Below are positions 4,482-46,844 of a stretch of 64,000 nt of DNA, piece after piece. Position 1 is the stretch's first letter. Each line of letters opens with the position of its first letter. Source of the stretch: Murdochiella massiliensis (lineage in GTDB: Bacteria > Bacillota > Clostridia > Tissierellales > Peptoniphilaceae); NCBI RefSeq assembly GCF_900059565.1, contig NZ_FIZW01000002.1:124001-188000 (forward strand), given 5' to 3'. Both the position numbers and the translations under genes were made by a program. The notes below the pieces were generated by a model. That model was not told where the DNA came from and did no database searches. It saw nothing but the letters and a program-made list of their open reading frames with translations.

Positions 4482-5588
4482 ATGGCCATTGCAAATATGA
4501 AACAGGAAGACAAAGAAAAAGCCCTGAGAATGGCGTTCAACAAGATTGAAAAGCAATTTGGTAAAGGCGCCATTATGAAATTGGGTGAACAGCCGGTGCA
4601 GGAAATTGATGCTATTCCGACGGGGGCAATCAATCTGGACTTAGCGTTGGGCGTTGGCGGATTACCGCGCGGACGCGTCGTGGAGATCTACGGTCCGGAA
4701 AGTTCCGGGAAGACGACGCTCGCGTTGGAAACCATTGCTGAAGCGCAGAAACTGGGAGGCATTGCGGCATTTATTGACGCGGAGCATGCCCTGGACGTCG
4801 GTTACGCTCGTCGTTTGGGTGTTGATACGGATAATTTGGTTCTCTCTCAACCGGATGACGGGGAGTCCGCATTGGAAATCCTGGAGAGTCTGGTGCGTTC
4901 AAATGCTGTCGATATTGTGGTGTTGGACTCCGTTGCCGCTCTGGTACCGCGTGCAGAGATTGAGGGAGAGATGGGGGACACGCATGTCGGTCTACTTGCG
5001 CGCCTGATGAGTCAGGCTTTGCGAAAATTGACACCGATCGTTGCAAAGTCGAACACTACGGTGGTCTTCTTGAATCAGATTCGCCAGAAAATCGGCGTTA
5101 TGTACGGCAATCCCGAAGTGACGACAGGCGGTGTGGCTTTAAAATTTTATTCCACTATTCGCCTGGATATTCGTCGAGGAGATCAGATTAAAGATGGCGA
5201 AGACGTCATCGGCAATCGTACACGTGTAAAAGTAGTTAAAAACAAGGTCGCTCCTCCATTCAAACGAGTGGAGTTTGATATTATGTACGGTACAGGCATT
5301 TCCAAGATCGGAACGCTCCTTGATACCGCTTTGGATTTGGGTATCGTGGAACGCGCCGGCGCATGGTATAGCTATGATGGGGAACGCCTCGGGCAGGGAA
5401 GAGAAAACGCGAAGAACTTTATTGCGGAAAATCTTGACCTGCACAAAAAACTGGAGAAAGAACTACGGGATACTCTCCGGGAAAAAGCTCAACGGGAAGA
5501 GGAAAGCGAAGGCAATGCGAGCGACACACAGAGCAATGCCGGTAAAAACGCTCCTCAAATGGGTAGTGAGACATTCACGTTGGACTGA
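4482..5588 (+). CDS. recA: recombinase RecA
   Basis: The central recombinase and SOS co-protease, 368 residues. Walker A GPESSGKT is near residue 70, and loop motifs such as [10 protein letters not shown] and the C-terminal acidic tail are present. GAGGAG precedes the ATG. It follows pgsA directly, as in many Firmicutes, but cinA and recX, common neighbours in Clostridia, are absent here. No LexA box was seen in the 15-base gap upstream, so any damage control would have to act on a promoter further up the operon or at the ftsK promoter. Confidence 0.98.
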
Positions 5589-15748: not shown

Positions 15749-15800
15749 TCCGTCAGCAACCGAACCTCGGTTCGAAAGAAAGAATTGAAAGGAGTTTATT

Positions 15801-45038: not shown

Positions 45039-45071
45039 AGAAAAAAAAACGAGGAACAACTCGCTCCTCGT
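45039..45071 (-). terminator. terminator of the LysM (yneA-like) gene
   Basis: On the minus strand ACGAGGA / TCCTCGT (7 pairs, 9-base loop) followed by nine T. Confidence 0.75.
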
Positions 45072-45105
45072 CAATGGTGAAGGTAATCAGATCCGCTATT
45101 CGCTG

Positions 45106-45414
45106 TTAGTTCAGTGGAATACGCAACTTTTGTCCCGGATGAATACCGGAAGACGAAAGATTATTGATGCGATAAATATCACGAACAACGTCACGTGTGT
45201 CTCGACCGTTTCGTTTCGCAATCGGTTCCGCCATGTGCCACACAGTATCCCCGGATCGAACAAGGATGGTTTCTTCTTCAACAAAAGAGGCGGCAGAGGA
45301 CGATTCTTTGGAGAAAAAACTGAAAAAGAAGGTTAATGCCAGAGCAAGTATAAGAATACAGATCGTGACAAAGGCATAAAATCGTTTTGGTTGAATAATA
45401 ACGGTGCGTTTCAT
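45106..45414 (-). CDS. yneA: SOS-regulated LysM protein, YneA-like division inhibitor
   Basis: A 102-residue protein with one N-terminal membrane helix (about residues 12-34, FYAFVTICILILALALTFFF) and a C-terminal LysM domain (about 48-101: VRSGDTVWHMAEPIAK through LRIPLN). This is the layout and size of Bacillus YneA, which blocks division at midcell during DNA damage. The ATG at 45414 is preceded by AGGAGG; the earlier in-frame start at 45435 lies inside a LexA box. Two perfect GAAC-N4-GTTC boxes sit in its promoter. It is independently transcribed, with terminators on both sides. YneA-type proteins are poorly conserved in sequence; the name rests on layout, promoter and neighbourhood. Confidence 0.8.
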   Translation of the reverse strand: MKRTVIIQPKRFYAFVTICILILALALTFFFSFFSKESSSAASFVEEETILVRSGDTVWHMAEPIAKRNGRDTRDVVRDIYRINNLSSSGIHPGQKLRIPLN

Positions 45415-45429
45415 AAGCCCTCCTATAAC

Positions 45430-45441
45430 GAACATTTGTTC
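45430..45441. promoter_or_regulatory. LexA box 2 (proximal)
   Basis: GAACATTTGTTC, the Gram-positive SOS consensus (GAAC-N4-GTTC), 15 bases upstream of the yneA-like ATG and 11 bases past the -10, so it covers the first transcribed bases. Confidence 0.85.
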
Positions 45442-45452
45442 TTTCTGTGTTC

Positions 45453-45481
45453 AGTATAGGCGAACATTTGTTCGCTGTCAA
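45453..45481 (-). promoter_or_regulatory. consensus promoter of the yneA-like gene
   Basis: On the minus strand TTGACA (45481-45476), spacer of exactly 17 bases and TATACT (45458-45453). The spacer consists of LexA box 1. Confidence 0.88.
45460..45475. promoter_or_regulatory. LexA box 1 (in the promoter spacer)
   Basis: GCGAACATTTGTTCGC, containing the same GAACATTTGTTC core (45462-45473). It fills the space between -35 and -10. Its centre is 32 bases, about three helical turns, from box 2. Confidence 0.9.
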
Positions 45482-45527: not shown

Positions 45528-46808
45528 TTATTTCTTATCTTCTTCCGGTTGCGTCAAGGCTTCCGTACACAAAAGACACGCCAACTTCGCCTGTTCATAA
45601 ACTACACCCCCCTGATAATAAACAATGAATGGTTCGCGCATCGGGCCATCCGCACTGACTTCTATGGACGATCCGTCAATAAACCCGCCGGATGCCATGA
45701 CAACCGGGTCACTGTATCCGGGCATGTCCCAAGGAAGAGGAACCACATCAGCGCCAACGCTTGCAGCCTGCTGAACGGCATGGCAAAATGCCTCTACTTT
45801 TTTGCCTTCACCGAGAGTAATCGCTTCGATAATATCGCTTCGCGGATCTTCGGAGGACGGTGAACAGTGATAGCCCAAATCTTCAAATACCTTGGCAAAA
45901 AGGATCGCTCCTTTAAGTGCCTCAACGGTGACATGCGGCGCAAAGAAAAGGCCCTGCAAGGTGAGACGGGTCGTTCCGAAACTAAGCCCTGTATCCTCGC
46001 CCAGTCCTGGTGCGATGAGCTGATTTCGACAACGTTCAATCCACTCTTTTTTCCCGGCAAGATATCCGCCGCTAACCGCAATGCCGCCGCCTGGATTTTT
46101 GATGAGGGATCCGGCGATAACATCCGCACCGACTTCCAGAGGTTCCCGTTCACCGGTGAATTCGCCATAACAGTTATCGACAAAGATAACAGAATCCGGT
46201 GAATTCGCTTTAATGATCGTAATCGCTTCTTCTAGCTCTTCTACCGTAAAGGCGCGACGATCGGTATAGCCGGTGGAGCGTTGCAACAAAACCAGGCGCG
46301 GATGGCAGGAAAGCGCCTCCGGTAAAGCCTGCAAGTCAATTTTTCCATCCATTAGTGGAAGCATCGCATAGTGCACACCGCGCTCTTTAAGCGTGCCTTT
46401 CTCCTCCCCTTTAATGCCGATTACCAACTGCAAGGTATCATAGGGATGTCCGGTAACCGCCAGCAGCGTATGTCCGCTGTTGGTCAAAGCATACAGTGCG
46501 GTCGCAATGGCGTGTGTTCCGGAGGTAATACCGGCACGCACCAGAGCGTCCTCGGCATGAAAGACGTCACGGAAAATATGCTCCGTCTTTTCACGTCCGG
46601 TATCGCCATAACCGTAACCGGTCGGAGAATAAAAATCGGACTGACTGAGCCCATTTTGTTGCATGGCATGCAGAACTTTTAGCTGATTGGCACTGCGCAA
46701 TTCATCCAGAGCGGAAAAACGTTCAGCCAGCATATTTTCAGCGCGCGTGATGCGCATCAGCGTTTCCGGACGCAGTGCGTAATAACGTTGGTAAATTTGA
46801 TTGTTCAT
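45528..46808 (-). CDS. ynbB: YnbB-type PLP enzyme (aluminium resistance / methionine gamma-lyase-related)
   Basis: A 426-residue PLP-dependent enzyme of the cystathionine/methionine gamma-lyase-related group that includes the so-called aluminium-resistance protein. The cofactor lysine is in ADVIAGSLIKNPGGG (about residue 232), with FVDNCYGEF as the aspartate segment. The ATG at 46808 follows AAAGGAAAACC; the in-frame ATG at 46832 has no site. In many Firmicutes it lies next to miaA/hfq and lexA. Here hfq is absent and the yneA-like gene takes the place of lexA. The reaction in the cell is not known for the family. Confidence 0.9.
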   Translation of the reverse strand: MNNQIYQRYYALRPETLMRITRAENMLAERFSALDELRSANQLKVLHAMQQNGLSQSDFYSPTGYGYGDTGREKTEHIFRDVFHAEDALVRAGITSGTHAIATALYALTNSGHTLLAVTGHPYDTLQLVIGIKGEEKGTLKERGVHYAMLPLMDGKIDLQALPEALSCHPRLVLLQRSTGYTDRRAFTVEELEEAITIIKANSPDSVIFVDNCYGEFTGEREPLEVGADVIAGSLIKNPGGGIAVSGGYLAGKKEWIERCRNQLIAPGLGEDTGLSFGTTRLTLQGLFFAPHVTVEALKGAILFAKVFEDLGYHCSPSSEDPRSDIIEAITLGEGKKVEAFCHAVQQAASVGADVVPLPWDMPGYSDPVVMASGGFIDGSSIEVSADGPMREPFIVYYQGGVVYEQAKLACLLCTEALTQPEEDKK

Positions 46809-46844
46809 GGTTTTCCTTTTTTGTTTATTCATCGTCGGCGGAGA

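Follow-up and report, generated by a model that had tools for sequence, protein, structure and literature searches.

A YneA-like LysM gene of Murdochiella massiliensis, its paired LexA boxes and an apparently contracted SOS regulon

We analyzed a stretch of 64,000 nucleotides of the Murdochiella massiliensis genome (the window) that carries a gene for a 102-residue membrane-LysM protein. We consider it highly probable that this protein is the YneA of its lineage, a DNA-damage checkpoint protein that is silenced by LexA at two operators in one promoter. A preliminary description had proposed an SOS division checkpoint, and the proposal is supported by the profile match, the gene neighbourhood, the conserved promoter and the presence of lexA, all of which were read from sequence. 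The locus is of further interest because the LexA regulon around yneA appears to have contracted.

The YneA-like protein and the relocated lexA gene

The gene, its direct neighbours and the lexA gene of the same genome are listed below.
45106..45414, minus strand: yneA-like gene, 102 amino acids, with a hydrophobic helix at residues 9-40 followed by LysM
45048..45072, minus strand: terminator-like hairpin with a T run, 3' of the yneA-like gene
45528..46832, minus strand: ynbB-like gene of the methionine gamma-lyase family (PF06838, E 6e-158), directly upstream
C2:363799-364431: lexA, 211 amino acids, PF01726 at 40.1 bits (cut-off 23.7) and PF00717 at 109.9 bits (cut-off 23.3)

The list of open reading frames starts the frame of the LysM gene at ATG 45435 (109 amino acids). 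We favored the 102-residue form because its ATG at 45414 is preceded by the ribosome site AGGAGG. The Pfam LysM domain (PF01476) was detected at residues 52-100 with an E value of 9.7e-8, above the Pfam cut-off. The top NCBIfam match was YneA (NF010723; E 6.2e-16), with 58.1 bits against a 60-bit cut-off that is an annotation threshold and not a biological definition, and the second-best NCBIfam family reached an E value of 3.7e-4. The earlier statement that sequence search would miss the protein thus holds for Pfam, which gives LysM only, but not for NCBIfam, where YneA ranks first at 1.9 bits under the cut-off.

AlphaFold2 modeled the protein with a pLDDT of 79.8 and a pTM of 0.49. The predicted layout consists of a helix (residues 9-40), a strand (47-51), two helices (58-69 and 73-84) and a second strand (96-100), and membrane insertion of the first helix is predicted from the sequence by eye. 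About 100 residues with a single N-terminal helix and one LysM domain is the layout of YneA proteins, and by Pfam and AlphaFold2 it is present here; the preliminary description had suggested this comparison. A Foldseek comparison with solved LysM domains gave moderate matches, the best with an E value of 5e-3 and none at or below 0.001. In our reading, D56 and T57 of a GDT motif probably correspond to D46 and T47 of Bacillus subtilis YneA. The hairpin that follows the gene suggests a single-gene transcript; four terminator-like sites were found in the region, compared to 1.0 expected in shuffled sequence.

We searched 121 relatives for yneA. A match was obtained in 81 of them (85 matches in total), and 80 loci were examined. 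lexA was identified in 68 of the 80; in all 68 it was divergent and 135 to 291 bp away from where the yneA match starts, and mutL-miaA-ynbB commonly lay on the far side. YnbB was identified in 70 loci, MiaA in 63 and MutL in 55. Within the examined stretch, 18 of the 80 loci had no identified lexA, YnbB or both. The 12 stretches without lexA comprised ten members of the lineage described below, G030, in which the contig ends, and a second LysM gene of G102. This last gene (G102:C1:1351720-1351998, L129) again encodes a helix and LysM, and it has neither lexA nor LexA boxes nearby. The same divergent lexA-yneA pair occurs in the Bacilli Brevibacillus gelatini, Paenibacillus agilis and Peribacillus tepidiphilus.

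In the window genome, ynbB still adjoins the yneA-like gene, and lexA lies 194 kb off. This genome (G000), which falls in one genus with G003 and G004 by genome grouping, belongs to a detached lineage of 11 members (G000-G004, G010, G018, G038, G040, G047 and G066). In all 11, lexA is elsewhere and yneA was left behind ynbB. Taken with the profile match and the lineage-wide conservation of the promoter (see below), the neighborhood in relatives strongly supports the assignment of the gene as a YneA orthologue.

LexA could control this gene while its LysM product remodels or protects the cell wall during damage rather than arresting division. LysM proteins have many roles, the NCBIfam score falls just under the YneA cut-off, and identity among the lineage proteins drops as low as 34%. 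However, the size, the helix-LysM layout, the profile match and the adjacency of lexA in 68 of 80 loci all suit YneA, and in Gram-positive bacteria, the small membrane proteins known to be under LexA are cell division inhibitors (PMC13396833, PMC6851548). We therefore regard another role as unlikely.

The preliminary description relied on the presence of a lexA gene. We found one whose product contains both the LexA DNA-binding domain (PF01726) and the S24 peptidase domain (PF00717), each above its Pfam cut-off, and whose own promoter has a LexA-type box, weaker than the boxes of yneA. Using a score matrix, a box was detected at the relocated lexA promoters of all 11 lineage genomes. An Ala-Gly pair, a serine and a lysine of the Murdochiella LexA presumably sit at the self-cleavage positions of Escherichia coli LexA, as aligned by eye.

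In a YnbB tree, the lineage stands beside G016 and G033 (support 98/94), nested among lexA-linked genomes, which indicates that the lexA-yneA linkage was lost once. In a LexA tree, the relocated LexAs cluster together at the end of a long branch (1.0 changes per site), which attaches next to the LexAs of G016, G033, G044, G007 and G064; this 16-member group is separated from the other 91 rows with a support of 99/89. The tree program flagged long-branch attraction for the LexA tree, which may lie behind this grouping. A foreign origin of lexA was also considered, on the basis of a class-wide search in which LexAs of other families reached 49% identity and 177.6 bits, compared to 42% and about 150 bits for the lexA-linked LexAs of the own family among the matches listed. 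We rejected it since both trees place the lineage beside the same relatives, G016 and G033. Relocation of lexA combined with fast change appears to fit better than replacement.

Paired LexA boxes in the yneA promoter

Two exact copies of GAACATTTGTTC are present in the window, at 45430-45441 and 45462-45473, 32 bp apart. The elements of the promoter are given in the direction of transcription.
45476..45481, minus strand: -35 element TTGACA; CTTGAC in 11/11 lineage promoters
45462..45473, minus strand: candidate LexA box 1, GAACAAATGTTC on the gene strand, within the 17-nt spacer; GAACAWWTGTTC in 11/11 lineage promoters
45453..45458, minus strand: -10 element TATACT; TATACT in 8/11 and TATTCT in 3/11 lineage promoters
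45430..45441, minus strand: candidate LexA box 2; GAACAAATGTTC in 10/11 lineage promoters, AAACAAATGTTC in G040

Read on the minus strand, TTGACA and TATACT, separated by the 17-nt spacer, match the consensus at 11 of 12 positions. Such a promoter is no proof in itself, since shuffling the same 801-bp region already yields 1.0 comparable promoters. Transcription would start about 7 nt 3' of the -10 element, which places box 2 at roughly +5 to +16. The preliminary description had claimed two identical LexA-type cores, one in the spacer of this promoter and the other 32 bases away on the first transcribed bases. Both copies proved exact and correctly located, the second with respect to the start site deduced here.

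When the 11 lineage promoters were aligned, CTTGAC, a box, TATWCT and a second box were constant, and the flanks, spacer and leader varied. The last base of the -35 hexamer differs in two promoters. The boxes are 32 bp apart in ten genomes and 30 bp apart in G040, where box 2 carries one change.

By itself, the core GAACNNNNGTTC is not enriched. The window contains three matches versus 1.11 expected, and at least three were obtained in 9 of 100 shuffles. In the genome-wide search that had been proposed, GAACNNNNGTTC occurred at 14 places, compared to 32 for the reversed control pattern. The pairing of the boxes is beyond chance: any exact pair within 60 bp appeared in 2 of 400 simulated windows, and two identical copies appeared in none of the 400. 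For the relatives, we employed a looser pair test, in which boxes lie 25 to 40 bp apart with at most one mismatch in total. The test was positive for each of the 11 promoters of the lineage and, among the other yneA-side regions, for 39 of 70, compared to 0 of 1,314 random 350-bp stretches from the same loci. When one mismatch was allowed per box, 60 of the 70 non-lineage loci had a pair. Two boxes (one mismatch each) or a suitable spacing were lacking in 20 of these 70 loci, or in 10 by the looser count.

The genome encodes two further S24-type proteins, at C2:572360 and C2:1038990, the latter with S24 and Cro/C1-type domains. A prophage-like element of about 35 kb adjoins tRNA-Pro, and the 3' part of the tRNA is repeated at its far end. 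The element carries an integrase-like gene as well as one for an S24-type repressor, and GAACATTTGTTC is located just within both of its ends (G000:C2:1036224 and 1071314; L369 box 1025 and L371 box 1315).

The boxes at yneA might thus serve another repressor of the same site, such as an S24-type phage repressor, and the gene might obey the prophage. The two further S24-type proteins and the GAACATTTGTTC copies at both ends of the element around C2:1038990 speak for this idea. Yet G001 and G003, with one LexA/S24-type match each, have kept the yneA pair, and the site at yneA matches the LexA box at lexA. Control by a phage repressor is, in our view, very improbable. That the palindromes are chance or RNA structure only, which the lack of genome-wide enrichment of the core would allow, is already refuted by the pairing and by box letters that are kept where spacer and leader vary, and its probability is negligible.

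Extent of the LexA regulon

The window also includes recA.
4482-5588: recA, upstream region without a LexA-like box

Within 350 bp of this recA, no site was found even when one mismatch was allowed. In the window up to recA, the single site at this threshold is at 716, inside a coding frame. The top matrix score upstream of recA was 6.7, below the 95% shuffle level of 7.2. In the seven lineage genomes read, no box was found within 350 bp of recA; one-mismatch sites lie at -156 in G002 and at -319 in G010. Outside the family but within the order, 15 genomes were compared: recA has an exact box in 14 and a box with one mismatch in the fifteenth. As just 4 of 17 other family members have the exact box, it was lost in much of the family, not in the lineage alone. 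In some bacteria, recA lies outside LexA control.

An exact box at uvrB was found in 0 of 10 lineage genomes, with a one-mismatch site in G040, compared to 8 of 11 other genomes (G076, one of the 11, has only 99 bp upstream). uvrB overlaps the upstream PDZ-S41 peptidase gene, of the CtpA family, by four bases (L222:230-3486), and its promoter may therefore sit beyond the roughly 1.5 kb read. Y-family polymerase genes (dinB) had an upstream box in 0 of 11 lineage loci and an exact box in 6 of 16 loci elsewhere. The comparison of SOS genes covered recA, uvrB and the Y-family polymerase genes.

Perfect GAACAWWTGTTC occurs twice each in G001, G003 and G004, solely at yneA. The window genome has four copies, two at yneA and one at each end of the prophage-like element. 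With up to one mismatch, GAACAWWTGTTC was found at 23 places in this genome, compared to 8 for the control pattern. A larger regulon was rejected, since these places, assigned by longest-frame reading, fall within coding sequence or on a start codon, save for the two at yneA, one at lexA, the two prophage ends and a weak intergenic site, C1:31046. In three congeners, the corresponding counts were 14 versus 10, 11 versus 11 and 19 versus 10, hardly above the control. Weak targets may be missed, as this whole-genome review covered sites with one mismatch or fewer.

Two further intergenic sites are among the 14 exact matches to GAACNNNNGTTC, at window 15762 and at C1:190285. The former (15762-15773) is GAACCTCGGTTC, between carbamate kinase-like and transporter-like genes. 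This palindrome also occurs in G001 and G004 and is absent among the exact sites of G003; its center is GC-rich, unlike the boxes of lexA and yneA.

Given no recA box and no good uvrB or dinB box in the lineage genomes examined, the SOS regulon has apparently shrunk to little more than lexA and yneA. We give an even chance to the fuller proposal that the SOS response contracted to a division checkpoint: lexA moved and changed fast, LexA kept lexA and yneA (and here the prophage-like element), and recA and the repair genes were freed. If so, damage would halt division, repair capacity would not be raised, and of all LexA targets in the genome, the yneA promoter, with a perfect operator in duplicate, would be bound most tightly. 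With a regulon of lexA and yneA, nature would have uncoupled the division brake from induced repair, and one could ask how much the brake is worth by itself and why selection retains it while operators vanish elsewhere in the SOS network. With this work, the known range of the LexA-YneA checkpoint comes to include a lineage whose automated annotation likely records a LysM protein only. A limited literature search found no paper linking Murdochiella and LexA, and none of the papers listed in connection with SOS named Peptoniphilaceae.

Proposed mechanism and known systems

LexA generally undergoes self-cleavage triggered by RecA on single-stranded DNA. According to our model, one LexA dimer would sit between the -35 and -10 elements and another would cover the beginning of the transcribed region. 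The two dimers, on the same face of the helix and separated by about three turns, would shut out RNA polymerase, at promoter recognition as well as in early elongation. Upon damage, RecA on single-stranded DNA would induce self-cleavage of LexA, and the promoter would open. A short-lived transcript would then give the 102-residue protein, whose helix may anchor it at the division site while LysM grips peptidoglycan, so that septal wall synthesis would be blocked.

CtpA degrades YneA in B. subtilis. Work on YneA in this species (PMC13396833) employed a CtpA deletion and attributes the division block to FtsW: the helix directs localization to FtsW, and LysM is needed for peptidoglycan binding. 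In the same source, D46 and T47 are required for peptidoglycan binding, and D46A, T47A and I81A abolish activity. Three FtsW/RodA/SpoVE family proteins are encoded in the Murdochiella genome.

Division inhibition has been described as a key part of the Gram-positive SOS response from comparative genomics (Cornish 2012, cited in PMC3998124). The candidate operators belong to the same family, GAACnnnnGTTY, as those of LexA in Clostridioides difficile (PMC4234289), where a lexA mutant is filamentous (PMC4689574). LexA of C. difficile binds at recA, uvrB and ruvC (PMC4234289), and its targets include recA, uvrBA and ruvCA (PMC4234289, PMC4689574). Thus, recA and uvrB are under LexA in C. difficile, whereas in the Murdochiella genome both are without a box.

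DivS is an SOS-induced division inhibitor of Actinobacteria. SosA is not known to have a LysM domain, and ChiZ has one. By description, SosA of Staphylococcus and ChiZ/DivS of Actinobacteria are likewise small SOS-induced membrane division inhibitors, as reported for SosA and ChiZ in PMC6851548 and PMC13396833.

The closest likeness is to YneA of B. subtilis, with about 100 residues, an N-terminal membrane helix, one LysM domain and LexA boxes in the promoter. The neighborhood mutL-miaA-ynbB-lexA-yneA, which we take to be the gene order of B. subtilis, is kept in most relatives. LexA control of yneA is established in Bacillus. Compared to that system, the Murdochiella gene differs in that lexA is not adjacent, two perfect boxes occupy one promoter and the NCBIfam score lies under the cut-off.
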